Virus record (IMG/VR): IMGVR_UViG_3300021424_000044
Span: 1 to 54,408 of that record
DNA: 54,408 bases
Source of the DNA: a virus
Direction: 5' to 3' (one strand)
The notes below the pieces were generated by a model. That model ran no database searches and was not told where the DNA came from. It saw only the letters and a program-made list of their open reading frames with translations. The translations under genes and the position numbers were made by a program. Below, one piece after another: positions 28,985-50,100 of this stretch (position 1 is its first letter; every line of letters starts with the position of its first letter).

Positions 28985-31900
28985 ATGGAAGATATCAAAT
29001 TTAAGTCCAACTCTGGACAGTTCAATATTGACCAAGCACAAGGAATAGTGGAGTGCTTCGTCGCTGGGATAGGCAATAAGGACTCCGTCGGCGACATTGT
29101 CGTTTCTGGCGCGTTCGCAAAGAGCCTAGTCCGCAGAAAGCCAAGAGTTGTCTGGGGCCACAACTGGAATGACCCAATTGGCAAAGTCCTAGAAATTTAT
29201 GAAGTTCCGCCAAATGACCCACGGCTTCCACAAAAGATGAAACTTGCTGGCATCGGTGGACTATATGCCAAAGTGCAATTCAATCTGAATTCGGAAAAGG
29301 GTCGAGAAGCGTTTACCAATGTCGCGTTTTTTGGAGAAGAGCAAGAGTGGTCGATTGGCTACAAGACGCTTGATGCGATATATGACAATGGCAGACAGGC
29401 AAACATTCTGCGTGAAGTTGAGTTGTACGAACTGAGCCCTGTCCTTCACGGCGCAAATCAACTTACTGGAACAATCTCTGTAAAAACAGAGGAAGAAAAA
29501 AATCATATGATGCACATGGTGGGCGGCGGTTCAGCGGTTGCCGTCATAGAAAAGCCAAAAGGTCCAGTTGACCCATTTGCGCAAGGTGTTGCGCAGCCAG
29601 CAGACAGCGATAGAACCGCAGCGCTCGAAAGAGAACTTGCCACAAGAACTGGCGGCCCAGTGAAAATTATGAAAGCAAACGAAAGTTCGGTTGTTTTCAT
29701 GAAGCCAGGCAGGGGAGTTTTCCGTCTTGGTTATTACTTTGACGGCGAACAGTATATGTTTGGCAAACCCGAGAAAATGGGCGCGACGATGATGGTCGTC
29801 TCCCCAAGTTCTGGTCGCCCAACCTCAGGTCCAGGAATGCCAAGAATTCCAAATTTCCCTGCGGTTCAGGGCAAGCCATCTACATCAGGGCCAATCATTC
29901 CAGTTAAGTATGGGAATGATGCAGCAGCCACTGGGTTTTTTAATCTGGATGATGAAAAATCATTGACCGAACAACTGTCGGAGCAGCCAGATTTCGTTGA
30001 GCAACTTTCGGGGATTATCGGCTCTCTGCAGGGTTTGGTCAATCAACACCGCTCCGAAAAATCAGAGTTGATGATTCCATGTAAGCCACAGGACGCCTTT
30101 GAGACAAAACAAGCCCTTGACCCAGTGTTTGATTATCACAGAATTGAAACATACGTTACGGAAGATGGCATCGTAATCGCGTCGCCACTGAGTGGAGATG
30201 CTTACGAGGCGGTGGAAAATGCGACCAAATCACTCCTCGGAAGAATTGGCAGGAGTCTTGGTGGCGGGGGAAAAGTTAGGCGCGGCAGGGCCGCGCTAGC
30301 CAGAATCGAAGGGGTACTAGACCCCAGAAAACGTCGTGACTTTGATGGCGACGGACTCATCTTTGATGGCACATGGATGGAGCAACCAGACCCAAATCGC
30401 GCACAATCTGTCTATAGGCAAGTTTCGTTTCTTCGTTCTAGCGGCAAAAAGCCCAAGGAAGTCACTGATGCATTGACTGGGGACGAAGTTCCTCGTTTGG
30501 AAATTAATTTTACCAGAACAGAAAAAATAAAGATTCTTGAGGTTTTGGACAACGTAATCAGTGAAAATCAATTGACCGAAGACAATCCAATAACAAAGTT
30601 GAGAGATTCGATAAAGAATGCCAAGAAAGTTGGCGAACAACTTCAACCGCAACTTTTCGGACCAGACGGCGAAAGTTTGCTTGATGGCGCAAAAGCAGAA
30701 TTTGAAAAATTGCAACCAAGTTTTGAAAAGCATGGCGGCAAAAAACCTGGAACAAAGGGCAGAACGCCAACTGACATAATCAAAGATGTTTTGACCAATA
30801 AGCGTTATGAAAGAAGAAATATCGACAAGCGTGCCAAGGGCGGTCTTGGTGGCACCTCTGCAAGGCAGGGAACAGCGCAGGGCAGACGGACAAACATTGT
30901 TGGCTCCAGTAAGCCCCTTCCACGGCTCGGGGGTAGGCGCGACGGAAAGTTGAACGTAGACGATTTTATTGAAAAAGAATTTTTGCCATTTGATTGGTAC
31001 AAGATGTCTGGTGATGAAAAACTGAAATGGCTCAACAGCAAGCCAGATGGCGCTGGAAATGAAGGGACCAATGAGGAAGCGTTGATAGGTTTGCGGCCCA
31101 AACAAGAGGCATGGCGAAAAACGGTCGAGCAAATAACCAATGACGCGATTGAGCAGTCCCTTGAGGAAGAGGACCCTGCTGAAAATCTTAGGGAGCGCAG
31201 GCAAGCGGCGAGTGAGGACCGCGCGGAAAGAGCGGCGGCGCCACGACGCGTATGGGAACAGACCATAGAAAGAGAAGAAAAAGAAAAGGCCAAGGTCGAA
31301 GAAAAACGCCGCAAGATGCGAGAAGCGGCGGCGGCAAGAAAGGCAAAAGACGAAAAGCGCGAGCCTCGCGAATTCCAGTCTGACCCAGATAGACCAGACA
31401 CGATTGCACACAAGCGAACAGCGGAAAAAATAACTAGAGATTCGGACAAAATCAGAACATTTCTGGACGCGCAATCAGCAAAAGGAAGGGTTAATAAGAC
31501 TGTTGAGGATTTAATCAGCGATGGCCTTGATGATGTTGATGTGTTGATTGCTGACGAGGATGATGTTCCAACGCTTGAATCACTAAGTGAGGCACGAGAC
31601 AAAATTGAAGCGCTTATTGCGACACTCACCGACCCAGACTTGATTGAAAAAATCAACAAGCGAAGAAAGATAAATAAAGAAACTGGCAAAGAAGAAGATG
31701 AACTAGAAGTTGTCACAACCCTTAGCAATGCTGAACAACAGTTGATTCAAGGCTTGAAAACTGTTTCTGGCAGATTGTCCGAACACATCAGTGAATGGGA
31801 GGACAGAGAGTCAGACCTTGATGCCGAAAGGGACCTCATTGGCCGTGCTGGAAGGTCTGGTATCAGGGCGGAAGATTCTGGGTATGACTTTGATGAATAT

Positions 31901-32470
31901 GGTGGCGGAGATGATGGGGCTGATGAGGTAACCAACTTCAGTGTAAACAGGAATCCAAATTTGCTAAGAAGTGGCGGTTCTGGGGTCAGGCGAAGGGACT
32001 TGAACACAGTAGTGAATGAGGCTCGACAATTTCAAACAACACTGGCAAGAAGAAAAACCAGCGGGGGGTTGCGCTCTGGCGGCGGAGGAGACAAAACGCC
32101 AAGAACGGAAATAATTAAAGAGTCGACATGGTGGAGGGGTATCGATACGTCACTAAGGAGAGAAATAGATAAAGCAGAAACATCTGCCATAAAAGATGGT
32201 TTGACGCTTTTGCAACAAAAAATCTCTAAATATAAGGCTGGCGCATTTACGCCTGGCTCCAAGAGAACGAACGTAGGTTCAATCAAAATTACAGCCGATG
32301 AAGCAGACAAAATTCTTGACGCAGTTATGGCGGTAATTGATAGACAAATGACTGCTGGAAAAGGCGGAAGCGTAGGCAGCAGAGCAGAAATTTTTGCGGA
32401 ACTGCTTGAGGCTGTCTCGTCAGCAGCAATGTCAACGTTTATAGATAAAAGCGGTTCGCCCGCGGACTGA
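28985..32470 (+). CDS. Prohead protease fused to a long polyvalent-type tail
   Basis: Protein of 1161 residues from ATG 28985 (AGGA 7 bases upstream; an upstream TTG is rejected). Residues 1-185 match HK97-type S78 prohead proteases: D-S-V-G-D-I-V, V-V-W-G-H-N-W-N-D-P-I-G-K (H59), W-S-I-G-Y (S123) and Y-E-L-S-P-V-L-H-G-A-N. Typical proteases are 160-250 residues, so the remaining roughly 900 residues are an added tail. This includes a calcium-loop-like module at residues 440-472, LRSSG-type motifs at 483, 994 and 1029, Lys/Arg/Glu-rich helices (about 680-830) and disordered linkers. The enzyme matures the capsid; the tail may deliver cargo to the prohead interior or be a substrate itself. That is inference. 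Confidence 0.85.
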   Translation: MEDIKFKSNSGQFNIDQAQGIVECFVAGIGNKDSVGDIVVSGAFAKSLVRRKPRVVWGHNWNDPIGKVLEIYEVPPNDPRLPQKMKLAGIGGLYAKVQFNLNSEKGREAFTNVAFFGEEQEWSIGYKTLDAIYDNGRQANILREVELYELSPVLHGANQLTGTISVKTEEEKNHMMHMVGGGSAVAVIEKPKGPVDPFAQGVAQPADSDRTAALERELATRTGGPVKIMKANESSVVFMKPGRGVFRLGYYFDGEQYMFGKPEKMGATMMVVSPSSGRPTSGPGMPRIPNFPAVQGKPSTSGPIIPVKYGNDAAATGFFNLDDEKSLTEQLSEQPDFVEQLSGIIGSLQGLVNQHRSEKSELMIPCKPQDAFETKQALDPVFDYHRIETYVTEDGIVIASPLSGDAYEAVENATKSLLGRIGRSLGGGGKVRRGRAALARIEGVLDPRKRRDFDGDGLIFDGTWMEQPDPNRAQSVYRQVSFLRSSGKKPKEVTDALTGDEVPRLEINFTRTEKIKILEVLDNVISENQLTEDNPITKLRDSIKNAKKVGEQLQPQLFGPDGESLLDGAKAEFEKLQPSFEKHGGKKPGTKGRTPTDIIKDVLTNKRYERRNIDKRAKGGLGGTSARQGTAQGRRTNIVGSSKPLPRLGGRRDGKLNVDDFIEKEFLPFDWYKMSGDEKLKWLNSKPDGAGNEGTNEEALIGLRPKQEAWRKTVEQITNDAIEQSLEEEDPAENLRERRQAASEDRAERAAAPRRVWEQTIEREEKEKAKVEEKRRKMREAAAARKAKDEKREPREFQSDPDRPDTIAHKRTAEKITRDSDKIRTFLDAQSAKGRVNKTVEDLISDGLDDVDVLIADEDDVPTLESLSEARDKIEALIATLTDPDLIEKINKRRKINKETGKEEDELEVVTTLSNAEQQLIQGLKTVSGRLSEHISEWEDRESDLDAERDLIGRAGRSGIRAEDSGYDFDEYGGGDDGADEVTNFSVNRNPNLLRSGGSGVRRRDLNTVVNEARQFQTTLARRKTSGGLRSGGGGDKTPRTEIIKESTWWRGIDTSLRREIDKAETSAIKDGLTLLQQKISKYKAGAFTPGSKRTNVGSIKITADEADKILDAVMAVIDRQMTAGKGGSVGSRAEIFAELLEAVSSAAMSTFIDKSGSPAD
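30302..30400 (+). other. Shared Asp/Gly module, copy 1 (in protease fusion)
   Basis: Encodes residues 440-472 with V-L-D-P-R-K-R-R-D-F-D-G-D-G-L-I-F-D-G-T followed by W-M-E-Q-P-D-P. The D-F-D-G-D-G-L-I loop resembles EF-hand or dockerin-type calcium loops (D-x-D-x-D-G-x-I). An Arg/Gly/Ala-rich stretch (G-R-I-G-R-S-L-G) precedes it. Two other proteins in the window carry the same module with synonymous codon differences. Confidence 0.8.
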
Positions 32471-32603: not shown

Positions 32604-33923
32604 ATGGATTACGACAAGAACGCAGTGGTTAAGTTGGACACCGACGGCTCCGTTTTGAAGTGCGCCAAGGGTGCTGACGCAGAGGGCTGCGGCTACAGCA
32701 TGGGCGCCAAGGTTTGCGCAAAGTGCGGCGCCATGCCCGTTCAGATGAAGGCCATGCCGATGGATGACGACGAGGAAATGGACGACCAGGAAGAAATGGT
32801 TGATGCCGAAGACGAAGATGACGAAGACGCGGTCGAAGAGGATGCGGACGAGGATGACGGCGAGGAAGACGACATTGATGCCAAGACCATGATGCAGGAC
32901 GAGGACGAGGACGAAGACGAAGAGGAAGAGGAAGAGGAAGAGGAAGAGGAAGAGAGTTCCGAACTTGAGGAAATGAAATCTCGTCGTCTAAGAAACATGG
33001 GCTACAAAACAGCCGATGTTGGCGCTCGTGGTTACCTGTGCGCAATTGACCGTAAGGTTTACCCAGGTGGTCAGCCAGTTTGTGACGACTGCGTCGGCGG
33101 ATGCATGGCCGAAAAGGGTATGCCAGGTCTGCTTCATGTTGAAGGTATTGCGGAAGACATGTTTGACGGCAAGGTTTTGGACTCTGGCTATTCAGCAGAA
33201 GCCGACATGTTTGTCGTTGACGTTGAGGCCAAGGATGGTCGCGCCGTTGAGGTGTTCGTTGACGGAACCAGTGCAGAAGTATTGGGCTGGCACAAGTTGG
33301 ACGGAAGTGCGTTTGAGCAGAAGTCGCTTGTTGACGAGATGATGCTCATCGACTTCAACGACGCCGCCGAAATCGCAGTCAAGTCGATTGAGGGCAACGT
33401 TGTGGCTGTTGAGCCAGATGTGTTCGAAGGGTTTGACGCATACGCAGTTGAAATCGACGGCATTGACGGTAAGTCATATGACGTGTTCGTTTCTCTTGAT
33501 GGCGAAGTCCTTGGCTACGACAAGTACGAGGAAGAGGATGCACAAGACATCGAAGCAGAGGCTGCAGAAATTGCATTGAAGCGCGCCTTCACAGACGAAC
33601 AGCGAACAAGCATGGCCAAGGAGGGAACTGCCCTTCCAGATGGCTCTTATCCAATTGGCAACAAGGAGGACTTGTCGAACGCGATTCAGGCTTTTGGTCG
33701 CGCCAAGGATAAGTCTGCCGCCAAGCGCCACATCATCAAGCGCGCAAAGGCGCTGGGTGCTGAGGCAATGATTCCAGCAAACTGGGTTGCTGGGGCCAAA
33801 GCCGATACGGGCCAGTCCGTGGGGGCTGACGGAGAAGCAGTTGACTCGGAGTTCATGTCACAATTGCTTGAATTTGAGTTGCTCAATGCCGAGGTTGAAG
33901 AAAACCAAACCCCAGAATCGTAA
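32604..33923 (+). CDS. Acidic head protein with zinc-ribbon, PepSY-like repeats and a phage C-terminal module
   Basis: Protein of 439 residues. C20, C29, C38 and C41 form a zinc-ribbon-like N-terminus; residues about 53-118 are a very acidic Asp/Glu tract; a second Cys cluster (Y-L-C-A-I-D then C-D-D-C-V-G-G-C) lies near 145-170. Two beta/alpha units with A-A-E-I-A-V-K and V-F-V-S-L-D-G-E-V-L-G-Y resemble PepSY repeats. Residues about 330-395 have F-T-D-E-Q-R-T-S-M-A-K-E-G-T-A-L-P-D-G-S-Y-P and R-A-K-D-K-S-A-A-K-R-H-I-I-K-R-A-K-A, a module frequent in actinobacteriophage head or structural proteins. The strong ribosome site and position suggest an abundant capsid-internal or scaffold-like protein. 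Function is not established. Confidence 0.65.
   Translation: MDYDKNAVVKLDTDGSVLKCAKGADAEGCGYSMGAKVCAKCGAMPVQMKAMPMDDDEEMDDQEEMVDAEDEDDEDAVEEDADEDDGEEDDIDAKTMMQDEDEDEDEEEEEEEEEEEESSELEEMKSRRLRNMGYKTADVGARGYLCAIDRKVYPGGQPVCDDCVGGCMAEKGMPGLLHVEGIAEDMFDGKVLDSGYSAEADMFVVDVEAKDGRAVEVFVDGTSAEVLGWHKLDGSAFEQKSLVDEMMLIDFNDAAEIAVKSIEGNVVAVEPDVFEGFDAYAVEIDGIDGKSYDVFVSLDGEVLGYDKYEEEDAQDIEAEAAEIALKRAFTDEQRTSMAKEGTALPDGSYPIGNKEDLSNAIQAFGRAKDKSAAKRHIIKRAKALGAEAMIPANWVAGAKADTGQSVGADGEAVDSEFMSQLLEFELLNAEVEENQTPES
32898..32954 (+). repeat. Low-complexity GAG/GAC repeat encoding an Asp/Glu run
   Basis: Tandem GAG/GAC/GAA codons encode an uninterrupted acidic run inside the acidic head protein. The purine-only repeat is prone to slippage and could vary between related phages. 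Confidence 0.85.
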
Positions 33924-33949: not shown

Positions 33950-36900
33950 ATGCAGGAACGTAAAGTATTAATTGCGCGCGTCATAAAGAGCGCTCGGGTT
34001 TTGCCTACATCGAAAGATACGCCGCAAGAGCGCATATCGAAATTTGTAGAGGCACAGAAGCAGGTTGTCGCGTACCCGTTTTCGCCAGAACTTTCGGTGA
34101 AGGCACTCGGGCAAGCACTCAAAAACAACAAGGACCCTTCTGCCGACAACAAGGAAAAACGCAAAAAGGCAGAATCCAATTTCACTCGTATCGGTGTTGC
34201 TGTTTTTGACCCAGATGCGACACCCAAAAAGGGCCAATACTTTGAGATAAGACCTCGCAAAGTAAATCAAGACGGACAACTTGGCGATGTGCCGAATGTT
34301 GGTTGGCTTGACCCACGAAAGACGGTCAAACCAGAAGATTTGGTTAACCAGGGCAAGAAGTTTCTAGCGTCGAAAAAGGGACCATCTGTAAGAAAGGTTC
34401 CAGCCAAGAAAAACCCGCGCACTGGACAAATGGAAGTTAAGGCGCTGGGCAGAACAATCGGCAGGGCCGCTGGGAACATCGGGCAAGCAGCCGCAAGGGC
34501 GGCTGGGGTTCTCGTTGATGCTGACGGCAAGTTCAGATGCCCGCCAGGAGTTCCAGCGGCCAATCAATTTACGGATGAAGTTGGAAGCAACTGTTTTGAT
34601 TTTTCCCCATTGGTAGCCCGAGCGTTGGTGAAAATCGCTGAAAAGTTTGGACATCAAATGATGGAAAAACTTAGCAAAGTTAATAACGCAACCCCCTTTG
34701 AGCGGAATGACGATTATCAACTTGTCCTGCGTAGTAGTGGCGGAAGACTCCGTGGCACAGTCCTTGGTCCAGAGAAAGAAAGACTTCGCGGAACACTTCT
34801 TGGTCCTGATGGAAAACCAATACCGCCGACACCACCACCGCCGCCAGCAACACCAATTGAGCCTTTTGATTTGATTGAGCGCGAACTTGAGATAGCAGAA
34901 AGAGACCTTGCAAGAATTGCTGGTTCTGGAGAAATAATTGACCCAGACACCTATGAAGAAAAATTTGAAGAAGCGTTTCGCGCCGCATACCCAGAATTGA
35001 CTGACGAAGAAATCAAGTCGCTTGCCAAAATCGCATCAGAGCGTGAGCGCATGAGAGATAAATTACGCGCAGAGCAGAGAAGCGCACTGGACCTAATAAG
35101 GTCGCTTGGAATAGACGTTGACGAAAGTGACCCAGTGTCAGTTCAAAGAGGAATAGCGCTGGCGTTGTTGAAAATGAAAGAGATGGGCTGGGATATCGAC
35201 CTTGACTCATATTTTGGTGAAGGATTTTCCGAAAATCCAGAGCGAGCATTACTCGCATACAGGAACACCATCGCAAATATGGCTTTGGATGGGACGCTTG
35301 ATGCGGTAAGGCAGGGGATAATTCACGGGATGAGCCCAGCCGATTTAGAGGTACTGCAAAGAAAATACGGGTCAAAATTTGAAGAAATGTTGGTGCAGGG
35401 GATAGTTGATGGCTCCAACCCTTCTGAAATTTTCCCTGATGACGAAAAAGCACAACAGTTGCTTGCCATGGGTCAAAGGTCTCTCGCCAAGGCTCAACAA
35501 TTTGAGACTGGCACCCTTTTGCAATTGATAAATGCAAGGCAAGAGAACCCCGAACTTACGCAAGATATAAAAAGTATTGTTCATGTTGCTTACGACCCCA
35601 GTGACCCGTTTTTTGGGGGGATGAGTATTGACGAAAAGGGCAATTTGCAGTTTCAGATGAATCTCGGCGGAATGTTACTGCTACACCCAGCCGCGTCGTT
35701 GTCGGATTCGGATTCATTCCTGTATGAACCAACTGGGACCGCTGGAACAGAAATAGAAAAATTGAAAAGAATAGGCGAAGTTGTAAGCGCGGAAAATAGG
35801 CACCGCCTGCTTGATTCATACATGGGGGGCCTAACGACATTTGCAGAACAAATATCTAAAATCCGCAACGGCGAAGGCTACATGACGCAGAGTCTCAACG
35901 ATTCATTTGGTGGTATGGCGCTTGGCCAATTCGTTGCTTTTCATGAACTGACGCATGGGCGCCAACTTTCCATGGCAAGGGAGATAATCAAGTCAAGAAA
36001 CCCTGGAATGTCAAACAGTGAGGCTATGGCACTGTTGGGTCAAATGATTTTTCAGGGCAGAAAATTCACGGATTCAAGAGGTGTTGACTTCGATTACGGA
36101 ACAATGATTACCGACCCGCAAGTGATGCTCACCGCATGTGCGAACATGAGGGAAATAGTTCATCACTTAATCGACAATAAAGTCGGAGGTACATACGGTC
36201 CCTCGCATTACTATTCCACGTTTTACTTAAACGAGGTCATGAGCAAAGCCAATAATTATTCTGACGTGAGCGACCTAAGAGACAGTCTCGTTATGCGGAA
36301 GCGAGAATTGGAGGCCGCAGGAAAAAACGAAGAAGACGCAGAATACAAGGGTCTGATTATGGCTATAGGGCGTATTGACGGTGTCCTAGCAAGTGCCACC
36401 GATGACGAAGACGCCCTATTAAAGATGCGCAGACAAGTAAACGAAATGGCTCAAGTTACATATTTGGAAATGCAGGCAGACCTTTCGGCTGCAGTGAAAT
36501 TCGGGCTCATAAAAGAAACTCCAGAAATAAAGGCATTCCTGGCTCCGCTATCGCTTGGCCAAGACCTCCCAGAAATAAAAAAGAATATTGTGCCGCCGCC
36601 GCCGCCAGCACCGCCTGGCCCACCACCAACGAGGCGAGATAAGTTGAGGGAATTGGCAGGGATAGGTAAACGAGCAAGAAAAATTTCGATGATGGACTTG
36701 CGAGACATGGTTGAGGGAATCGCTGACATAGATGAAGCCACTGATAAAACTGGTGGTCTTTCTGCTCACGACAGGACTCTCATGTCGGCAGGTATGGCGT
36801 CAGCCGCAAAATTTGATAGTAGGGGCTCTGCATCCAGATGGGGCAAACAAGTCAGAGACGCTGTGTTGCGCGACATGACAGAAAAACATCGTGAGGTGTT

Positions 36901-39900
36901 GGAATCTGAATGGCGTGAACTTTTCGATGTTAAAAACCCAATAGCAGAAGACGGAACAAACCAGTCCATATTGGACCATAGGCTGATTATGGGTGGTGTT
37001 GACGACTCCTGGCTCTCAAATGAAATAGAAAATGGCTTCATTCCATTGGTAGAAGTTGTTGGTGAATCCAAACTTCCGAATTCTGTGGCTGCTGAAATAG
37101 TTATACCTGGTGGCGCCATTAGCGAATTTGGCGAGGAAATGAAGGGGAGAAGAATAGAAATCAGAACACATTTCACTGGGGTCATCAAATCCGACGACAA
37201 CCTTGGTTCCTCAGATTCCATTACAAATCCAATTGACAATCAAAGATTGATTGTCGCCGTACCAGAGGGGTATTCGGGCCTTCCCGACTACACGCCAGGA
37301 ACAGACAAAAGCGAAATTGGCTCGATAATTCTTCCCCCTGGGGAAATAGAAATTGTTGGTGTTAGGGATGACGGTGTCGCAATTGGCCGCGTAACGTCGC
37401 AGCGAAGCGCCGACGATATTATCGACGCAAAACGCCAAGAACTTAAAGCATTTGACGACAAAAAAACTGACATTGGCGAAAAAATAACAGTCAGAAAAGC
37501 CATAAATAGGCTTGAAAGACAACAAGAGACCCGCAGACTTTCTGCGCTTCGTTCCGCTGGTAATACCGCTCGCGCATTACCAGATGAAGATAGAACAAAA
37601 CTTCCATCAGCAAAGTCGAGCAAAACACGCGACGTACTTGAGCGCCTCAATGCCGTTGGAATTAAATTTGGCATCAGCAGCAAAAAAGACAGGGAGAGAA
37701 AACGCAAGGAGCGATTGTCCAGGGTTGGCGGAGATAATGCGCGTGTCGGGATGAGCGTTAGAACAGACACGTATGAATTCGAAAGTCCAGAAGAGTCGCA
37801 GGTGAGGGTTTCGAAAAGCATCGATAGGGCTGTAGAACTAATTAAAGAGGGCAAACTTCCTGGACTGGCGCCAGAAGTTGCAGAAATCATGAAGGACAAA
37901 TCCCCAGAAGAAATTAGAGCCATTCTTGTTGCTTCCGCACGTTCGTTTGTCGATGGACTTGATAAGAGACCGCGATTTAGGGTGCGTGGAACAAGGGTCC
38001 GAGACGTAAAGGACGCCAGAGAAATACCGTTACTTGGATTCTTGAAAACTGGTGTTTACAAAACCACCTATGATGCTGACGCAACTGGTGTCGCGGCGGC
38101 ATCCGATGTGGGAAGGAGGGCGGAGTATGAGATTCTGCTTGGTTTACCAGAGGGGGCCGATGAATCCCTGAGGCCAGCACATGGCTTCATGACGCATAGA
38201 GACCAAATTGAGTTTGAGGACGAGTGGGCAAAAGCACAGATTGACGCTGCTGAAAAACGGTCGCCAAACGCCGTTTCGTTTAGAGACCCAAGCGTTATCC
38301 CGCCAGCATCTGGCTCCAATAACAAACTCAAGGATGCTGACGGCAAACTGAGGGCTGTTGACTCATTGCCATATCAGTATGGTGACAGCGAAATAGTGTT
38401 GAGAACCGACGCGGCCAATCGTTCTGTCGGAACAATGGGTGACTCGCTAAATGGCTTTAGGACCCCATTCCAACTTGATGGCTCATCCACCGATGATGAA
38501 TTATTGGAGTCTTTTATTCTCAATAGGGGTTCTGCGGCTGACAAGGGCGATATTACCGCTTCAGAACAAAGACGAATTGCAAACCTGTTGAATGCCGCAG
38601 TCGGCAAAAATCACGCACACACCACCGACTGGACGGAAGATGGTGGGGTTCCACAAAGGGATTATGTAGAAGCAGTTGTTGCTGGTTCTTTTGATATGAG
38701 CGACGTGGAAGAAATAAAAATTTCCAAGGGCTTCCAAGATGCAGAAATAATGCCGTTTGCAAAAGTTGACGCTCAAAATGTCGGGGGTGATGAGGTGGTT
38801 GAATTATTGCAAGACGTACTCCCACAAAAAGATATAGATGAGGTTAAAAAACTTATTTCATCTCCACAAACAGACCCAGACAAAAAGCGCCTTGCTGAGG
38901 ACATTAAGCAATTAATCGCGGCGAGACTCCAGTTGGTAAGAGAAAGAAGTGGCAGAAGGCAAGTGCGCGCACGAGTTGCACAACATTCATCGGATGGCAA
39001 TGTTCCCAAGGTTACTTTCTTGAATCCTGATGGAATAAACATTGATGACCCCAGGACCTTCAAGAGAACAATGGACGCCGTCGGTATGGGCGAAGAGCAC
39101 GAAATAGACGACATCGTCAAATATGCAACCGCAAAAGCCATCCGTGAAAGACTTTCTGGCTCTGGCATTTCTGTTGACGACGATGCATCATTCGCTGCCC
39201 TGAAGCCAAAACCAGTTATATCTGTTGCCAATAATAAACCAGCACTTCGCTCCAGTGGCGCCGCGACACCAAAAACAAGAACGCAAATACTTTCCGAACT
39301 GACAAGTTCGGGGAATAAGCCAGACTATGCCCCAATAGGTTCTCGTTCACTACAGATGATGGACGAGGCAAAAAAGAGGCGAGAAGAACTATCCCAAATA
39401 CTTGATTCGGCAAGAATGATAACCCCCAATTTTGAAGAAGATGAATTGAGCGAAGTTCTCAACATGGCCGACAAGACTTTTGCTTGGGCAGATGAGGAAC
39501 TTATTGCATCCTTAAGACAATTACGAAATCGCCCTGGTCTCTCAGATGCTGGTAGAAAGAAAATTGACCGCGCATTACAAGAACTACAACAAAGAAAAAA
39601 GGAATTTGTTGCAGCGGGTGAACGAGGATTTGTTCCAGGGATTCGCAGAAGCGGCGCCGACAAAAGCCGACGCCTCGCAAGGCGTTCTGAATCTGCCGCT
39701 CGCAGAATGGAATCTGGTGACCCAGCACAAATAGCCCGAGGTTTGAGAGACATTCGCAGCGCAAGAATGAGCGCCGAGGGGAGGGAGAACACCACCCGAA
39801 TCGCCCAAAACCAAGTTATCCGAGGGAGTGGTTCAAGGTCTGCTTTCAGGACAAGGGGTGTTGGCGCCTCACTTCGTTCTTCTGGTGCCACAAGAAGTGT

Positions 39901-40963
39901 GGATGACAAACTTTCCGAAGGGCCAAGAAACCTTCAGTATGGAACAGACTCACAAAATTTGCCGCGCGTGGCGACGGCGGATGAATTGGAAAAGCGATTT
40001 GGGAATTCCACAAAGGCTCACAGAAAATATTTTCGTCAATACGGCGTAAAACTCGTGGGCAACATACCCGATGACCCAGTTGAAAGAGAAACTTACTACG
40101 CGTCTTTGCAAGCGTTGGATGATTTATTTAAAAACGTAGACCATAAACAACTGTTGAAAGGACTCAAATTTAAGGTAAGAGTTAATTCTTTTGTAACAAA
40201 GGGTGGCGAGGGACCATTTGGAGAATTTTCAAGGGTAAAAAGAATATTTGCAGATTATGGAAAAGATAAAATCCAAATGAGCATCTCAACTGACAGAATT
40301 ACCAAAAACGCAAAAGAACTTCACGACGATTCGCTCAGGTATCGTTTTGTTGACCCGATGACAAACCAAATGTTGTCTTCCTTTGTGAACAGACTTTACA
40401 TAAGTCCAGAAAGACTTAAAGGCTCAAATGGCTCCCAAGAAGAAATAGCAAGAAGGCTTGCGTATGCATGTGCAGTTCACGAATTTGGACACTTCCTTGA
40501 TTTTGCAGCGGTCAGAAAGGAAGATAGGACAAGAATGAGGTCCCTTCTTGGTGAAGGAGTATTTGGTGAAAGGGACTTGGCAACCGAAGAACTCGGCGCC
40601 TATAGAACAGCGCGTTTAGTTGAGCAATTGAATCAGATGCCGTCTGTGTCTTCGTACGGAGTATCAAGCCCACAGGAAAAACTCGCAGAGGCGTTCACCG
40701 CCTGGTTCTTGTTTTCCAAACGACCAGATATAGCGATTAATGGCGACCTTTCGCTAAGCGATAAAGAAAGGTCGCAACCAATATCAGGAACAATTGGCGG
40801 ATTTGCCAAACCAGTTGTTGAACTCTTGCTGGAAGAATTGGGACCAAGAGTCAAATCCGCTAAACAAAACAAAAACGATGATGATGATGATGATGATTTG
40901 CCACCACTTGTCGCCATGTACGCCCTGTTTCCGTTTATGATTGAAGATGGTGGAAAAGCGTGA
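33950..40963 (+). CDS. Giant polyvalent protein with two zincin-like metallopeptidase sites
   Basis: Protein of 2337 residues. N-terminal beta/alpha region (1-150), then an Arg/Ala-rich amphipathic stretch L-G-R-T-I-G-R-A-A-G, then a paired-Cys module (residues 195-216: R-C-P-P-G and F-T-D with C215). LRSSG-type motifs are at 260, 1200, 1766 and 1975. H-E-L-T-H (665-669), followed about 175 residues later by Y-L-E-M-Q-A-D-L, and H-E-F-G-H (2177-2181), followed by K-L-A-E-A-F-T-A-W-F, are two HExxH zinc sites with plausible third ligands. Several Pro-rich linkers occur (near 295 and 880). The C-terminus is Asp-rich. It may process head or host proteins. The gene ends overlapping the next start. 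Confidence 0.8.
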   Translation: MQERKVLIARVIKSARVLPTSKDTPQERISKFVEAQKQVVAYPFSPELSVKALGQALKNNKDPSADNKEKRKKAESNFTRIGVAVFDPDATPKKGQYFEIRPRKVNQDGQLGDVPNVGWLDPRKTVKPEDLVNQGKKFLASKKGPSVRKVPAKKNPRTGQMEVKALGRTIGRAAGNIGQAAARAAGVLVDADGKFRCPPGVPAANQFTDEVGSNCFDFSPLVARALVKIAEKFGHQMMEKLSKVNNATPFERNDDYQLVLRSSGGRLRGTVLGPEKERLRGTLLGPDGKPIPPTPPPPPATPIEPFDLIERELEIAERDLARIAGSGEIIDPDTYEEKFEEAFRAAYPELTDEEIKSLAKIASERERMRDKLRAEQRSALDLIRSLGIDVDESDPVSVQRGIALALLKMKEMGWDIDLDSYFGEGFSENPERALLAYRNTIANMALDGTLDAVRQGIIHGMSPADLEVLQRKYGSKFEEMLVQGIVDGSNPSEIFPDDEKAQQLLAMGQRSLAKAQQFETGTLLQLINARQENPELTQDIKSIVHVAYDPSDPFFGGMSIDEKGNLQFQMNLGGMLLLHPAASLSDSDSFLYEPTGTAGTEIEKLKRIGEVVSAENRHRLLDSYMGGLTTFAEQISKIRNGEGYMTQSLNDSFGGMALGQFVAFHELTHGRQLSMAREIIKSRNPGMSNSEAMALLGQMIFQGRKFTDSRGVDFDYGTMITDPQVMLTACANMREIVHHLIDNKVGGTYGPSHYYSTFYLNEVMSKANNYSDVSDLRDSLVMRKRELEAAGKNEEDAEYKGLIMAIGRIDGVLASATDDEDALLKMRRQVNEMAQVTYLEMQADLSAAVKFGLIKETPEIKAFLAPLSLGQDLPEIKKNIVPPPPPAPPGPPPTRRDKLRELAGIGKRARKISMMDLRDMVEGIADIDEATDKTGGLSAHDRTLMSAGMASAAKFDSRGSASRWGKQVRDAVLRDMTEKHREVLESEWRELFDVKNPIAEDGTNQSILDHRLIMGGVDDSWLSNEIENGFIPLVEVVGESKLPNSVAAEIVIPGGAISEFGEEMKGRRIEIRTHFTGVIKSDDNLGSSDSITNPIDNQRLIVAVPEGYSGLPDYTPGTDKSEIGSIILPPGEIEIVGVRDDGVAIGRVTSQRSADDIIDAKRQELKAFDDKKTDIGEKITVRKAINRLERQQETRRLSALRSAGNTARALPDEDRTKLPSAKSSKTRDVLERLNAVGIKFGISSKKDRERKRKERLSRVGGDNARVGMSVRTDTYEFESPEESQVRVSKSIDRAVELIKEGKLPGLAPEVAEIMKDKSPEEIRAILVASARSFVDGLDKRPRFRVRGTRVRDVKDAREIPLLGFLKTGVYKTTYDADATGVAAASDVGRRAEYEILLGLPEGADESLRPAHGFMTHRDQIEFEDEWAKAQIDAAEKRSPNAVSFRDPSVIPPASGSNNKLKDADGKLRAVDSLPYQYGDSEIVLRTDAANRSVGTMGDSLNGFRTPFQLDGSSTDDELLESFILNRGSAADKGDITASEQRRIANLLNAAVGKNHAHTTDWTEDGGVPQRDYVEAVVAGSFDMSDVEEIKISKGFQDAEIMPFAKVDAQNVGGDEVVELLQDVLPQKDIDEVKKLISSPQTDPDKKRLAEDIKQLIAARLQLVRERSGRRQVRARVAQHSSDGNVPKVTFLNPDGINIDDPRTFKRTMDAVGMGEEHEIDDIVKYATAKAIRERLSGSGISVDDDASFAALKPKPVISVANNKPALRSSGAATPKTRTQILSELTSSGNKPDYAPIGSRSLQMMDEAKKRREELSQILDSARMITPNFEEDELSEVLNMADKTFAWADEELIASLRQLRNRPGLSDAGRKKIDRALQELQQRKKEFVAAGERGFVPGIRRSGADKSRRLARRSESAARRMESGDPAQIARGLRDIRSARMSAEGRENTTRIAQNQVIRGSGSRSAFRTRGVGASLRSSGATRSVDDKLSEGPRNLQYGTDSQNLPRVATADELEKRFGNSTKAHRKYFRQYGVKLVGNIPDDPVERETYYASLQALDDLFKNVDHKQLLKGLKFKVRVNSFVTKGGEGPFGEFSRVKRIFADYGKDKIQMSISTDRITKNAKELHDDSLRYRFVDPMTNQMLSSFVNRLYISPERLKGSNGSQEEIARRLAYACAVHEFGHFLDFAAVRKEDRTRMRSLLGEGVFGERDLATEELGAYRTARLVEQLNQMPSVSSYGVSSPQEKLAEAFTAWFLFSKRPDIAINGDLSLSDKERSQPISGTIGGFAKPVVELLLEELGPRVKSAKQNKNDDDDDDDLPPLVAMYALFPFMIEDGGKA
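34532..34597 (+). other. Paired-Cys module, copy 1 (in 2337-residue protein)
   Basis: Encodes residues 195-216 with F-R-C-P-P-G, then F-T-D and a final C; the equivalent element in the 686-residue protein reads S-R-C-P-E-G, G-G-R-F-T-D and C. It sits where the Asp/Gly calcium-loop-like module sits in the other large proteins, after an Arg/Ala-rich amphipathic stretch. Confidence 0.6.
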
Positions 40964-42073: not shown

Positions 42074-44130
42074 TGAGAACAGATAGACGAGCGGTTTCGC
42101 AAATTAGGAAAATAATTGAGAAAAGTGCTTGCTGCCCTGATTCGGACATTGTAAAAACACGCGTTGTTTTTGTTCATGGAGAAACAGCCCCACAAGATGT
42201 AATGCGTTCATACGGCGCATATCGCCAAGAAATCATTTCTTTCAAAGCGCTAATCAAGCGAGGCGGCAGGGGTAGAGACTTTGAGTTCAAGAGAATTGGT
42301 TTAGTTGCCTCCAACAACCCAGTACTTCAAGGTGTTCAGGCGGTTGGCTCCGTCCTTACTCCTGGAAACTTGAGCGTGATAAGAAGCCCAATTCGCTCCG
42401 CAATCGCAAGAACATTGACCCCAGGCGTTCCTGGAATGCCTGGAAGAAATCAATGGAGAGATGGTGTGTCCAGATGTCCAGAGGGTTATCAATATGGCGG
42501 AAGATTTACGGATAATAGATTCTCCACGTGTGGCCAAAAACTTTTTGCACTACCTGGACCACTGGGAGCGGCGATTGGTCTCATCAGAAGACTTGCACGT
42601 GCGGCAAATCCACCAGTTTCAAACGTTTCTTCAACTGTTCTTGGCGCTGGTGATGCGCCAGACAATCTCATTCAATCTCGCGCACCGCAGATTCCAAAGG
42701 TGACAATGTCCAATCCACAAAAGGCATTGGCGGAAGTTAAAAAGTTGGTGAAGCCATTGGGCTCTGTCGATAATCCAGCAGCACGAATGGTTCGTCGCGA
42801 TGGATTTGTTCTTGAGCCAGTTGTGCCGCCATCAGTTTTGAGAACCATTCCAGACAACAGGGACATGGAGGGCGCAACTTACATGTTGAGCGTCGCAAGC
42901 CCTGACCTGATTGGCAAGGACGAACTCGGTCTTTTGTCAAATACTGGAGTGACAAGTCTTAAATACGTTCTGCCTGGCGGTTCTGTTCTTACGTTGGAAA
43001 AACGTCGTCAACTGACCGTTGGCGAAAGAAGAAAACTTGGAAGAACTGTAAATGCGGCAATGGATGCTGACAACTCTCGCGACCCATCGGCGCGTCTAAA
43101 AATGGTCGCACAAGAGACTGGTGAAGGTATCGGATATTCAGAATCGTTTGTCGGTGTTTCGCGACCAAACGAAATTGGCGAAGACGGCAAGCAGCGCTGG
43201 GCAACCCGTGCATTCAAGAAGCGTGTTGCAAAAGCACAAACTGAAGAAAAGCCAGAAGAACAACAGCGCCAGCCAGATTCCGTTTCCCCAATTGGTAAGG
43301 ACATCACGACACTTGCTGGAGCGGTGGCCCATATTCAGCGCGGCGGCTCACTGGTCAACATATCCCCAGACATCTTGCAGCAAGCACTTGCCAAGGTTTC
43401 CGAAATCAAGAAAGACAAGATAAACGACAATCAAACAATGCTGACACTGCCCAATGGTGACCAGTATGTTCAAAAGGCGGCAAAGTCGGATTTCGAGGCA
43501 GTAACTCAACGATTTGTGTCGCAAGTTCAGCAACACATGGGCGTCGAATCACCCAACATCGTATTGGTCGGTACTGGTAATAAACGTTCGTATTTGGTGG
43601 AGGACGCTGCAACCGCCTTGAAAGGTGCAAAAATTGATACAGAGGCTGGGTTTGCCCAGGCGCCGTGGTCAGACGTAATGCGATTGATGGTCGCAGACCT
43701 GTTGACGGATATGGGCAACAGAAACAGCGGCTCAATTGAAATAGCCGACTACAACGGAAAAAAGAAGTTGATTCCAATATCTAATGACGGTGCAGGGTTG
43801 GTTGAATTATCTAATATTTCCATTCGTGAAAGAACACAGGCCCAACTCCGAGACTTAGTCCAGCCTTCCGAATCGCAGTTGTACATCAAGTATTTCAAAG
43901 AGTTGAAGGCACGACAGCGCGCTCAGCAATTGCAATTTCTTGCTACACTTATTCAGCGCGCACGAGCGTTTAATTTGAGTAGTTTTAAATCAAGGCTTTA
44001 CACAGATGGTAAACTTAACTCTGGCGAGAAAATTCACTTGAATATTCTTGAAACCTTGTACACAACCAGACTTGAAAAACTCGTACAGCAAGACTCAGCG
44101 CTACAAGACGTGATTTCGGGAAGACAATGA
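42070..44130 (+). CDS. Polyvalent-type protein with paired-Cys module and possible kinase-like domain
   Basis: Protein of 686 residues from ATG 42070, which overlaps the previous stop by four bases (ATGA). N-terminal region about 1-115, then a Pro/Gly-rich stretch, then a paired-Cys module (residues 134-155: R-C-P-E-G and F-T-D, C). The middle is basic helix and linker. Residues about 440-600 have an alpha/beta pattern with N-G-D-Q-Y-V-Q-K, D-L-L-T-D-M-G-N-R-N-S-G-S-I and I-P-I-S-N-D-G-A-G-L, reminiscent of a HipA/PI4-kinase-type active site, but I could not confirm it. No LRSSG motif is present. It overlaps the next giant gene by four bases. Confidence 0.7.
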   Translation: MMRTDRRAVSQIRKIIEKSACCPDSDIVKTRVVFVHGETAPQDVMRSYGAYRQEIISFKALIKRGGRGRDFEFKRIGLVASNNPVLQGVQAVGSVLTPGNLSVIRSPIRSAIARTLTPGVPGMPGRNQWRDGVSRCPEGYQYGGRFTDNRFSTCGQKLFALPGPLGAAIGLIRRLARAANPPVSNVSSTVLGAGDAPDNLIQSRAPQIPKVTMSNPQKALAEVKKLVKPLGSVDNPAARMVRRDGFVLEPVVPPSVLRTIPDNRDMEGATYMLSVASPDLIGKDELGLLSNTGVTSLKYVLPGGSVLTLEKRRQLTVGERRKLGRTVNAAMDADNSRDPSARLKMVAQETGEGIGYSESFVGVSRPNEIGEDGKQRWATRAFKKRVAKAQTEEKPEEQQRQPDSVSPIGKDITTLAGAVAHIQRGGSLVNISPDILQQALAKVSEIKKDKINDNQTMLTLPNGDQYVQKAAKSDFEAVTQRFVSQVQQHMGVESPNIVLVGTGNKRSYLVEDAATALKGAKIDTEAGFAQAPWSDVMRLMVADLLTDMGNRNSGSIEIADYNGKKKLIPISNDGAGLVELSNISIRERTQAQLRDLVQPSESQLYIKYFKELKARQRAQQLQFLATLIQRARAFNLSSFKSRLYTDGKLNSGEKIHLNILETLYTTRLEKLVQQDSALQDVISGRQ
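42469..42534 (+). other. Paired-Cys module, copy 2 (in 686-residue protein)
   Basis: Encodes residues 134-155, S-R-C-P-E-G, G-G-R-F-T-D and a final C-G. Compare the copy in the 2337-residue protein. Both follow a Pro/Ala/Arg-rich stretch, suggesting a common structural unit or targeting signal. Confidence 0.6.
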
Positions 44131-47100
44131 GACAATACGCGGTACTAAAGAATGTGGTTCGCGACGTTAATTTTGGCGTCGTCGTAAAGTCCGATGGAAA
44201 CCTTAAGTTTTTTGGTTGGTCCCAAAAAGCAGTGGAGTGGGCAAACTGGGCAAATTCCAACAATGCCGACCTAAGTCAACTTCCGCCGAATATCTCTGTG
44301 GGTGAATTCAGGGGTATGTCCGACGAGACAATGAAGAGCATTATTCTGAATTCCCAAGATGCCGTCGCTGCTGGTTCGGCAACAATCAGCACCAAGACCT
44401 TGGCCTTTGATTTGGGGCGCGAGCACAACCCAAATGCGTCAAAATTCCCCTCTTTTATTGATTCGCCAATTTCTGGAGACTGGGTCTCAAAGCATAAGTC
44501 AATAAATTTCAAGGCGCATAACTTCAGAAAAGAAGTTGTACAGAATGAACTTGCCCTAAGGGTCCGCATTCACGAATTGGCTTTCAATAACGAGACTAAA
44601 CAATTTGTTTCAAAGCCCAATAAAATTACCGCAACCCACACTCGTTCAGAAATTCAAAAAAAGATGTCGCGCGGTGCGGAGCGAAAATTCGGTAAGCAAA
44701 TTGTTGAATACACGAACAAAGAAATCCTGAAAAACTACGTTGCCCCAACAATCAAGAGAGATACGCTGGGGAAATCCACCAAGGAAATTCTTGATACCTA
44801 TACAAAGGCAAGGCTCGGACGAGCGATTGGACGCGCTGCTGGTAACGCGATTCGCGGAGCAGCGTCAAGCAGGACAGCAAGAGGTGTTGCACGAAGATTT
44901 ATTTCTGGTACTCTCGACCCACGCAAGAGAAGAGACCATGACGGAGACGGGTTGATTTTTGACGGTACATGGCGGGAAATGCCAGACCCCAATAGATTTG
45001 TTTCTGCGCCGCGTGCCAGCGAAACCTCAACGGGCATGTTGATGGAGGGTACTCCTGGTCTTCGACGCCGCGGCGGAATGAACCTTCCAGGTGGTGGCGG
45101 TGTTGGAATTAGAAGTACTGACCCAGAAGAAAATAGGAGAGTAGAAGACAGCCTAAGAGCCCAAGATGAACTGCGACAACAATTTACGGCAGAAGTAGAA
45201 AAAATAGTCAATACACTAAGGGATGCTGGTCTTACTATCGAAAAACCAAAGCGTGGAAAGCGCGAACGAAGACTTTCTGACGGCACTTCCCTAAGAAGTT
45301 CTGGTGCAACCGCGAACGAGCCGCCACGTGCCGCCGCTGCGGTTCAGATGGCGTTTGACACGCGAAATAGTCGCAAAGCATCAAAGATGACGTATGACCC
45401 GCAGACGAATTCTGTTGAAGTCACATATAAAGACGGAAGAATGAAAAGATTTGACAATGTCCCATACGATGAAGCAAGACGCGCTGGGGCCGATGACGCA
45501 ATAGACAGACTCATTACAGACATGGAAACTGGCCGCATAGGCAAGGAATCCAAAGAGCCAATTATGGGCATTCGTTCATCTGGCAGAAGACCCAAACCAG
45601 ACGTTGACATGACAGATATGACGCCAGAAGAAAGAGAAGCGAATAGACCTAGTAGCGTTTCAGAAGATGAGTATCGTCGCCGAATTCGACGTGATGTCGA
45701 CCGAAGTTTGCGCAGGGCCGACGAAGAAGGTTTGCGTTCGTCTGGGAAATATACACGCGGGAACATGTCGCGCCTCACCCCTCAAAGCCAAAGTCGCGTT
45801 GACAACGCAAAAGAAATGCTTGATTCTGGAAGAGTTGACAACGTCAGGCAACTGACGACCCAGGTCGAAGGTCTTGATTTACGTATTTCCAGAAATCAAA
45901 ATTATCTTGATTCGCTAAGGGACACGCTTCGCAGGTTGGGCCCTGGTGACAAGCGCCGCCCAGATACAGAAAAAGATTTTGAACGCGCCGAGCAAGAACT
46001 TGGCGTTGATATGGCGATTCGCGACCTAACTCAGCAAAGACTCAAGAAAATCGACAGGGGCCCAAAGCCAGGTGGTTTGCGCTCTAGTGGTAATCGAAAT
46101 ACTGCAGAAAAACTCCCTGACGAAGGCGGAGAACCTGGTCGCTATGACGACATGCCGAGCGTTGAGGACGCTGTTAAAAAACTTACCTCTGGCGACAGAA
46201 TGTCAGCAGACGAACTCGAATATCTGGAGGAGGTGACGGACAGAATCCTCGATGACCCAGACACACCAGAAAATATTCGGGATTCAATGTTGGATTTGAA
46301 AAATCAAATTGCTGCACGAAGAAAGAATGGCGGCAATACGCTTCGCTCCAGTGGTGGAGGGGGAAGACGACGCGCAACCACGCCAACCCCAGTGGACGTT
46401 GAAGCATATCTCAAAGACTGGTTGGAAAATCGAAATCGCAATCGGCCATATATGCCTGGACAAGATACTGGCCAAAAAACACCTGTCGATGATATCCCAG
46501 ACCTGTCCGACGAAGCGATTCGTGACGAAATCGACAGAATTGAAAATCGTCCTCGCGTATATGACGGCAACGTTACTGCTGCTCGCATGGACGGCGAGCG
46601 CAAGGCGGCGCTGGAAAGAGAATTGCAAAGAAGACGGAGAGGCGGAGGCAGAAGAAAGCCAACTCAAAACACTAAGCGCCCGTTCTCGAGCGAACCAAAA
46701 CCAGAGACCAACAGACCACTTTCGACGGGCAGTAACCAGCGCGTTAGTAACTGGTTGAATTCACCCGAAGGTAGAAGGAGTGTTCAGACCCTTAGGTCAT
46801 CTGGGGCAGGCCGTGAGGAATTTGGGTCGACCGCAACTGGTGGTTTCAAATACCCCAATGCGTCGCAAAGAAAGCGAATATTCAACAGCAAGGAAGACGT
46901 CGACGATTTCATACAGGACCTCAAAGACGATTACGAGGCTCGCCGAAGACGATTAGAACAAGAACTTGGCTTTGAAGATGGCTACTACATGGACGACGAA
47001 GAACTTATTGAAAAGTTCATGGACGACTACGGAATGTCGAGAGGCGAAGCGCGCCAAGAAATGCGCAAATACAGACGTAATTACGACCTTCTAGAAAAAG

Positions 47101-50100
47101 AACAGGAAATTCACGAGCGTCGTCTCGATGAACTTGATGCAGAGAAATCAAGGCTTCCACACCAGCAGGAAATTGACGACCCGATTGAACTCGACACAAA
47201 TGGTTTCCCCAAAAATCCAGAACAGACGGAACGTTTTAACGAACTGATGGAGGAGGGGAATCCAGTCTTCAAGGCCCGCAAGAGGCCAACACGAAAACCC
47301 AAGGAAACAGAAGACAAACGAGACCCAGAAGTTGAAGACCTCATTTCCAACATTATGTCGTCCACCGCTGGTCCAAGCGAAGGGTCAAAGCGTTCACTCC
47401 GCTCTTCTGGCGCTGGCCCAGAAACCCAGGATAGACCAGAAATAACATCAATTACGAAATTGATTGAGAATGACTACGACAGCATGCTGCAGGGTGGGGC
47501 CGACATGGATTCTGGCATGAGAGAAGTCGCTAGAACGGTTGGACTTAACGAAAAACAAACTGAAAAGTTGTCCAAGATTGCTTACACCTTGGACAGACAA
47601 AGGGACGAACTTCCGCAAACCGCAAGTGACCAAAAGAGGCTCGTTGACGGAATCATGGAGGAAAGATTTGGCAATCAACCACTGAATGACGACCAAAAAG
47701 CGTCAGTGCGGGAGGCTCTGTCGGCATTTATTGCCTACGCCGCGAAGAACGCAAAAGCAGAAGCCAACGGAAAAGCGAAGCCACGCCGCGACAGCGAGCC
47801 AGATGACATTCAGTCGATGATTAGAAGATTGCAGAGCGGGCAGCAACTGAGTGATGACGAACTCGACATGCTTGATGAACTGAAAAACATCGTCAGAGGG
47901 AAACGGAATGTAACCGAAGACGAACTTGATGCAATGGCTGACCTGGAAAAGGAAATACAAAGGGCACGACGCGCACCACGTCGCCAATTCGAACCAGCAC
48001 AGCAGGCTCTCTTTTCACGAGGAAACGTAAGAACGGATGTGCCGCTAAGTTCCCGTAGGTCTCTTGCAAGAACCGAGCGTGCCGCTAAACCACGAGGGAC
48101 AACGCTCCGTAGCGCTGGTGGAGATAAAACAAAAACACCAAGAACACCAGCACCAAAGAGTGGCGCTCCGCGCGGTGTTGGTGCTGGTCCTGGTGGCAAG
48201 GCTGGCCACGCAAGAATGACAAGAACGTATGGTCGTGACAAGAAGGGCAGTGACGGAAAGGTATTTGACTCCCTCACACCAGAACAGAAGGATGCCGTTA
48301 AGAAGACTCTTGTCGAAGAGGTCAAGCCAGCATTGGATAAGAAACTAAAGGGTTTCTTCAGTAAGTATTGGAAAGCCAGAAGCGAAAGAGGCTCTAAGAA
48401 ACAAAGCCTTTTGGCTGTCCGTAGAAGAGCAAAGGGTGACGCTCGCGGAAGATACGACAAAGTCGCAGAAGACACCCCACTTGAGTCGGCAGATATTTAC
48501 GAGATGCTTTATCGACTTGACGGACAAGTGTCCGAAGGTCTACTTGAAAAGTTTGAAGTGTCCGATAAGGACTCGCGAGAATTAAAACTCACCGAAGATG
48601 GTGAGGCCAAGGTGAGCGCGGCCAAGAATGGATACACAGTTCAGCAAAGAGCCTTGGATGACGCTCAGACAATCATGAACATGATTGAAGACGGGGACTT
48701 CTCCGCTCTTGAGCACTTGCATCCTGCCACCAAGAAGAAGATTGCTGACGTAATCAAAAAGAACGGCGGCGAGGTTCCAAAAGGTTGGATTGATTCAGAG
48801 TCATCAGTCGCTGGTTGGGCTGGCGGAGAAGGACGAACAAAGGCCCCAGACGCAATCGACCTAGAGAAAGAACGTGGAATAGGGAAAAAGAAAAAAGAAA
48901 AGCGACTCTCCCTGTTCCAAAGACTGCGCCGCGTCGACCCAGAAAGAGAACGAAAAGTTGAATTGCGCGCTGCAAGAAGACAGGGCCGACTCCGCGAGGG
49001 TATTGAACTTGACCCTGACCTACAGTTGAAGCGACGTATTCTTCGTGGCCGCGCCATGAAGAGAACTTTTATGTCGAGGTTTAGGAAGAACCGCGACCCA
49101 GAAACGCTTGCAACAGACATGAGGGAAAGGCGAGAAGAGGTTGCAGTTCTTAAAACAAATGCTACGGATGGAAAGGTTGAGGTTACTGACGGTTATGTCG
49201 ACCTTTTGCACGCTCTTGACCAAGGCTTGATTGGGATTAATGAAAAGAAGAGAAAGGGAGCAAGCGAAGAAGAAGTTGAAAGCGAACATAAAGCGTTGTT
49301 GCGCAGACTGTGGGAAAACTCGGGCTTTTCAGAAACGCCAATCCAACTGAAAGAAGATGAGGTTAAGTTACTCCTTGATGCTGGTTGGCAACCCATCATG
49401 CGTGGCACTGGCCACGAAAAAGTCAATAGCGAAACCTATGTTGAGCAATTCATCACCTCGGAAGGACGATTTATCCCAGGTCAGGGTGGCTCCGCGTTCG
49501 GAATCGGCGAATACTTCTCGTACCCAGGCGAATGGGGTAGTTACCATGGCGCGAATCCAACCGACAGACACACGCTCGTGGCACTCCTGCCCCCAACATC
49601 AACAATTGTCAAGCAGAGTGAAATTGCACGTGAACATGCAAATCTCGGCGCCATCACAACAAAAATTTCGGACGCATTCAAAATAATCGGTGGTCGAGAT
49701 GCGACCAAAGCCATGGAGCCAGAAGAACTGGTCGCCGAAATAGACAAAGCGGTCCCAGACCTGTCATCCGACGCATCGCGAACTGGTCAGATAATTAAGC
49801 AATTACGCGACAGGCTTGAGGCATTGTCAAAACTGCCCAAAACAAACGACGAAGAACGCGGTGCAGTTCAAGCACAAAAGGAAAAGATTTTGAATTCGCT
49901 TGACTATCTACAGCGTTTTTCCAAGCAACGCTCGCCAGAAATGATTGCACCGCTTATCGGTGTTGACGCCATTGACACAAACGAGAATGACTCCTCCATT
50001 AAGGACCCAATTCTCCTTCACAACAGAACGTCTGTTGCGGTTCTTCAGGTACCGACAACCTACGACCAGGGCTTGGCATTGGTTTCTGGCCCCAATGGCG

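Follow-up and report, generated by a model that had tools for sequence, protein, structure and literature searches.

The window analysed here is a 54,408-nucleotide stretch of viral DNA, positions 1 to 54,408 of IMG/VR record IMGVR_UViG_3300021424_000044. A plus-strand frame at 28985–32470, opening with ATG, encodes a protein of 1161 amino acids (aa) that joins a prohead protease of the S78 family to a long tail carrying a short motif, which recurs in other proteins of the same virus. Residues 19–170 match Pfam Peptidase_S78 (PF04586) with an E-value of 4e-10 (40.5 bits against a cut-off of 21), and PHROG 80, a head maturation protease, matches the same domain (E 4e-26). H59 (in WGHNW) and S123 (in EWSIG) are unchanged across a 28-row alignment of relatives, confirming the complete protease domain described in an earlier reading made from the sequence alone (the sequence-only reading). 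The gene follows the portal gene (portal at 26886). Contig G003 (locus L006) encodes the same protease at 100% identity, and there the major capsid gene starts just past the point at which the window ends; the protease gene is thus located between the portal and major capsid genes. A structure search with the full 1161-aa model gave nothing significant, the top match being a herpesvirus protease with an E-value of 0.38 from a low-confidence model.

The tail behind the protease domain comprises ~990 residues, and the protease proteins of relatives reach 3900 aa (tails of up to ~3700 residues). The sequence-only reading had put the protein at about five times the usual length, a reasonable estimate from what is generally known of S78 proteases. 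Alignment of nine full-length relatives gives a common layout (Table 1): a near-invariant protease, a conserved segment running up to an Asp/Gly module, the first motif, a variable middle, one or two further motifs, and a conserved C-terminal helical domain. This last domain also ends the tails that relatives encode in a separate frame. In the relatives L080 and L086, the protease tail contains pentapeptide-like repeats (GADL/GANL).

Table 1. Features of the protease gene and of other genes discussed in the text
Feature	Position	Strand	Remarks
S78 prohead protease domain, residues 1-170, with H59 and S123	28985..29494	+	Pfam/PHROG; ~91-98% identity among nearest relatives
Conserved segment behind the protease, residues 171-427	29495..30265	+	Alignment
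Candidate slippery run GGGGGAAAA	30266..30274	+	In-frame heptamer G GGA AAA at 30268-30274 (codons G429, K430)
Stop TAG in the -1 frame, two codons on	30277..30279	+	A slip would give a free protease of ~431 aa (...GGGGKS)
Hairpin GCGCGGC-AGG-GCCGCGC, 7 base pairs	30280..30296	+	5 nucleotides behind the slippery run
Asp/Gly module DFDGDGLIFDGTW, residues 452-464	30338..30376	+	Recurs in the 44127 and 51389 proteins
Motif site 1, LRSSG, residue 483	30431..30445	+	Model segment 473-501, pLDDT <50
Poorly conserved tail middle, residues 488-993, probable cargo	30446..31963	+	Alignment; confident helical segments in model
Motif site 2, LRSGG, residue 994	31964..31978	+	Model segment 955-1005, pLDDT <50
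Motif site 3, LRSGG, residue 1029	32069..32083	+	Model segment 1021-1043, pLDDT <50
Conserved C-terminal helical domain, residues 1044-1151	32114..32437	+	Alignment and model
Acidic scaffold-like protein, without motif	32604..33923	+	
2337-aa protein, probable packaged cargo	33950..40963	+	4 LRS[SA]G sites; two HExxH motifs
2288-aa protein	44127..50993	+	Asp/Gly module; 7 LRS[SA]G sites
902-aa protein	51389..54097	+	Two WMPC motifs, Asp/Gly module, sigma-70 region 4, zeta-toxin-like P-loop; 5 motif sites
Tape measure protein	8789..13645	-	Class-matched sites LKSSG at 663 and LRSGG at 704

A candidate recoding element at the protease/tail junction

Between the conserved segment and the Asp/Gly module lies a candidate −1 recoding element (30266–30296), which the sequence-only reading had missed. 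In the window and its close relatives the two frames are fused and the junction reads GGGGGAAAAG. Synonymous conservation over codons 425–438 is 2.07 times that expected, compared to a maximum of 1.22 in 402 other codon windows. In 57 of 73 distinct fused genes, codons 371–620 contain a slippery heptamer in frame, followed by an early stop in the −1 frame; such heptamers are ~39-fold denser at the junction than in the first 370 codons, and ~5-fold denser than in the tail. In three relatives a core pair of the hairpin has changed on both sides, from G-C to C-G.

A different arrangement is found in L071/L072, L115, L116, L153, L154, L155 and four more relatives, where the protease frame ends at 431–482 aa and a stretch of 7–8 A leads into the tail, which occupies hundreds to thousands of codons of the −1 frame. 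Seven of these split relatives have an A7 slippery heptamer. Protein homology, including the Asp/Gly module, is continuous across the slip, and in L071 and L153 the stretch from the slip to the beginning of that module lacks a start codon. Hairpins lie downstream of the slip in six split relatives, with energies that are at best modestly better than those of shuffled sequences. The frame arrangement is therefore reversed between the groups: the predicted slip shortens the product in one and lengthens it in the other, and both arrangements predict a free protease and a fusion. Fusion of protease and tail is not obligatory, as a free protease is a predicted product in most relatives. Some clades carry runs of A10–A11 at the junction, where transcriptional slippage may act.

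Several observations weigh against such an element. The energy of the window hairpin is ordinary when compared to shuffles (z −0.6 to −1.1), changes of hairpin pairs are few, the A7-group hairpin shows no double change, and 16 of the 73 fused relatives lack a slippery heptamer. It is codon conservation, the placement of the heptamers and the continuity of the frame, not hairpin energy, that make the case for recoding. On these grounds we regard the element as very probably real, with frameshifting itself as its predicted effect.

A virus-specific motif in head and tail proteins

The protease tail contains three LRS[SG]G motifs, compared to 0.004 expected from shuffles of the protein, together with the Asp/Gly module, as the sequence-only reading had noticed. 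It had also described these elements as common to the candidate substrates of the protease, which holds: the head cluster contains 19 LRS[SAGQ]G sites in four proteins, and two of its long proteins carry the module. On the minus strand (8557 aa coded), a single exact LRS[SAGQ]G match is found, in the tape measure protein. The second, degenerate site of that protein had escaped the sequence-only reading, as had the variation of the motif letters from virus to virus. G002 has the two tape measure sites at corresponding positions, and so does G001, where they read GLASST/GLASAT.

Across the 19 sites of the window, many different codons encode each of Leu, Arg and Ser. These mixed codons indicate that selection acts on the peptide, and they rule out copying or duplication of DNA as the source of the motif. 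In structure predictions, the three motifs of the protease tail lie in segments with a predicted local distance difference test (pLDDT) score below 50, between confident helical segments, and all five motifs of the 902-aa protein are likewise in low-confidence linkers. As ~31% and ~38% of residues score that low in the two models, the chance of finding all eight modelled sites in such linkers is ~2 in 10,000.

More than 540 related loci are present in IMG/VR. The S78 gene is always among them because it served as the search bait, and its presence is thus no argument for it as the cutting enzyme; the labels for motif versions were set by hand. Unbiased pattern discovery identified a strong repeated pattern in 99 of the 145 relatives with enough sequence. 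A few of the 99 patterns are acidic repeats, and nearly all others hold x-S after L, F or M, sometimes T or A. The versions seen include LRSxG, GLxSxT, LxSGR, GARSxS, GFAS, GLAS, GFxSxT, GMRSR, FSSG, LSSG and STRS. Each virus has its own version, mostly with a [L/F/M]-x-S core, and the versions change together across all cargo proteins of one virus, at matching junctions; for instance, one linker appears as KIEKEKIR-GFAS or as KIEKEKIR-GLAS, depending on the virus. Since virus-specific versions that switch together, written with mixed codons, require a trans-acting reader, the motif is almost certainly read in trans, as judged from these sequence comparisons. Three metagenome-assembled ‘bacterial’ contigs were matched as a lead to the host and set aside as probable stray phage contigs.

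The distribution of the motif is narrow. In nine genomes, the proteins with at least two sites are the protease tail (if fused), the long head-cluster proteins and the tape measure, with one extra giant protein in large genomes; capsid and terminase have no sites, and no portal or scaffold-like protein reaches two. Sixteen tape measures of known class contain 22 class-matched sites, compared to ~1.3 expected. Pattern discovery on the minus-strand genes of seven genomes, excluding the tape measure, gave nothing comparable except glycine-rich repeats in one genome. The common denominator of the motif carriers thus appears to be that precedents suggest they enter the host. The 136-kb relative G001 encodes, outside the head cluster (80836–90903, L025–L031), a 3355-aa protein with seven GLxSxT sites and two HExxH motifs; a similar 3112-aa protein is found in G007 (94703–104041, reversed coordinates).

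The scaffold-like protein and the three long motif proteins of the window are all encoded between the protease/portal and capsid genes. The 902-aa protein combines several unrelated domains: DUF3721, which matches its first WMPC motif, sigma-70 region 4 and a zeta-toxin-like domain. Pfam gave nothing above cut-off for the 2337-aa, 2288-aa and 690-aa proteins. The 2288-aa protein has a weak KTSC match (residues 415–449) between the motif sites at 389 and 482; by eye, its residues ~1750–1860 resemble an ADP-ribosyltransferase and its last ~200 a kinase-like fold, with no Pfam match there. A second shared module, CP.G....FT....C (CPPGVPAANQFTDEVGSNC; CPEGYQYGGRFTDNRFSTC), is located near the N-terminus of the proteins encoded at 33950–40963 and 42058–44130, which lack the Asp/Gly module, and may serve the same purpose. 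In Gordonia phages GMA6 and DalanDe, the protease ends in a stretch resembling the C-terminal ~65 residues of the scaffold-like protein, so that a segment fused to the protease there is separate here.

The candidate reader of the motif

We propose that ribosomes remaining in frame would produce the 1161-aa protease–cargo fusion, while those slipping −1 on G GGA AAA before the hairpin would stop at once and release the ~431-aa protease, with slipping setting the ratio of the two products. Through the fused tail, cargo would enter the assembling head along with the enzyme. The motif would be the phage's own cutting site, at which the S78 protease cuts itself and the other motif-bearing proteins; leaders and cargo domains would thus be released from proteins expected to leave the virion together with the DNA. 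The same enzyme would probably trim the tape measure before or during tail assembly. The protease gp245 of phage SPN3US cuts internal proteins after A-x-E (P3-P2-P1), has a preference for Ser at P1′, and also cleaves off the propeptide at its own C-terminus (PMC10052503). A cut after the Ser of the motif would give an h-x-S core of the same layout, although the exact bond is a guess.

Comparisons of nearest neighbours are consistent with a reader encoded near the protease. The nearest neighbour has the same motif version in 9 of 11 cases for the protease domain, 11 of 11 for residues 171–470 and 10 of 10 for the scaffold-like gene, compared to 7 of 11 for terminase, 8 of 11 for portal and 1 of 3 for capsid. 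These numbers are small and the genes linked, but they would place the signal in the block running from protease to cargo and not in terminase, portal or capsid.

Other findings count against the S78 protease as the reader. Gene linkage alone could account for part of the neighbour concordance. The protease domain is 82–98% identical to its nearest relatives across motif versions, with no residue that clearly tracks the version beyond phylogeny; position 118, the best normalised association and our candidate for a single specificity-switching residue, was rejected as it follows phylogeny. No class-matched motif occurs in the major capsid protein, which head proteases usually cut. The motif does occur in the tape measure, a tail protein located outside the head, so that action inside the prohead alone would be insufficient. 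Cleavage, the identity of the enzyme, packaging and ejection are inferred from sequence.

The motif could instead be a docking tag, bound by a partner in the head or by a tail chaperone that loads cargo for packaging or ejection. Many copies in disordered linkers, read in trans, would suit such a tag, and its presence in both head cargo and tape measure would suit a common ejection or loading factor. However, the capsid protein does not track the version: the G003 and G005 capsids are 94% identical despite different motifs, and because capsid relationships do not follow the motif version, the capsid protein was rejected as a reader. Moreover, the sites of the 902-aa protein lie at junctions between conserved blocks, as expected of cutting sites, and the motif core agrees with the P3-x-P1 layout at which a known head protease cuts. 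We consider a docking role unlikely. Somewhat less likely still is cleavage by another enzyme, either an HExxH metallopeptidase domain of the 2337-aa protein or a host protease. That protein does contain two HExxH motifs, and peptidase domains of polyvalent proteins are proposed to process these proteins (PMC5512222). However, the region of the second HExxH is matched in only five close relatives, and one cluster has a single HExxH; a host protease would hardly be expected to demand different letters in closely related phages.

We assign a similarly low probability to the idea that the junction element is another kind of signal, such as transcriptional slippage, an internal start or RNA binding, with split relatives restarting translation. 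GTG or TTG does stand behind the slip in several split relatives, and the A10–A11 runs of other clades suit transcriptional slippage, which would still give the same two products. Restarting, however, is difficult to reconcile with L071 and L153, where homology continues through the −1 frame without a start codon at the slip, and each of the two frame arrangements combines a heptamer with a short spacer and a hairpin. It is very improbable that duplication or recombination spread the motif as a neutral linker. The cargo regions do differ strongly between relatives, which would suit such spread, but the codons at the 19 sites are mixed and the versions switch together at matching junctions.

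Cleavage of the motif by the S78 protease is, in our judgement, the probable reading, although with considerable room for doubt, and we hold the explanation as a whole (two products, cargo fusion, and cutting by this enzyme) with the same measured confidence. The sequence-only reading had suggested that the protease processes itself, or that its tail carries cargo into the prohead. Both suggestions fit the placement of the motifs, their behaviour as sites read in trans, their location in linkers and the preserved fusion. They are partly supported, since the first motif is directly behind the conserved leader, near the point where the free and fused products diverge, and since the predicted frameshift element preserves the fusion even where the parts occupy different frames. 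The capsid protein without a motif, the tape measure with one, and the absence of a protease residue clearly tracking the version speak against them.

More broadly, a large lineage of tailed phages may combine a Gag-Pol-like frameshift, setting the ratio of free protease to fusion, with a virus-specific cutting code that changes fast, is read by the protease and releases host-bound proteins from polyproteins in head and tail; we regard this generalization as evenly balanced. If the proposal is correct, aquatic phages of an abundant group make their packaged proteins by polyprotein processing, and a frameshift determines how large the cargo-bearing share of the protease is. The sequence motif by itself would then point out which proteins of a phage likely enter the host and where the boundaries of their functional pieces lie, and would give direct access to the many unannotated ‘dark’ proteins of phages. 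The relatives would also provide naturally matched proteases and cutting sites, in which the joint change of an enzyme and dozens of its sites could be studied, and the head protease gene would be a new place for programmed frameshifting.

Comparison with known systems

Head proteases that act on internal proteins, packaged polyvalent proteins and frameshifts in phages have all been described. A virus-specific site code spanning head cargo and tape measure, combined with a frameshift at the head protease, was not found in the literature searched, of which coverage was partial. The window protease has the same domain, the same catalytic His and Ser, and the same gene position between portal and major capsid as S78 prohead proteases of the HK97 gp4 type, such as those of GMA6 and Brevibacterium phage Cantare. 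Compared to the GMA6 (484 aa) and Cantare (417 aa) proteases, it adds the ~990-residue tail with its motifs and the predicted −1 recoding element. GMA6, DalanDe and Cantare share the protease domain and have no repeated motif (for GMA6 and Cantare, among head-gene proteins). In DalanDe (L047, 14641–19542), a 1633-aa ‘capsid maturation protease’ has its S78 domain near the C-terminus, behind ~1100 residues, which is the opposite order of fusion.

One head protease acting on several internal proteins, as proposed here, is also seen in SPN3US gp245, P1 Pro and T4 gp21, and gp245 acts at a short motif and cuts itself (PMC10052503, PMC12810830). In phage P1, DarA and the capsid protein are cut by Pro (PMC12810830; PMC9024508), and the tape measure and Dar proteins are ejected (PMC12810830); in DT57C/T5, the tape measure is cut during assembly (PMC10713586). 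SPN3US differs in that its A-x-E sites serve mostly for removal of N-terminal propeptides, whereas the motifs here are virus-specific and punctuate multi-domain proteins. The polyvalent proteins of Iyer et al. 2017 (PMC5512222) are likewise very long, multi-domain, encoded among head genes and predicted to be packaged and injected; neither a shared virus-specific inter-domain motif nor a fusion to the head protease was found in the searched passages of that work.

No precedent for frameshifting at a head protease was found in the literature searched, which is weak evidence given its partial coverage. Programmed −1 frameshifts are also used by dnaX and retroviral Gag-Pol. In lambda gpG/gpGT, a slippery heptamer and a downstream structure likewise set the ratio of short to long product (PMC5009743). 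Compared to lambda gpG/gpGT, dnaX and Gag-Pol, the gene concerned here is a head protease, and the predicted arrangement is inverted between relatives.

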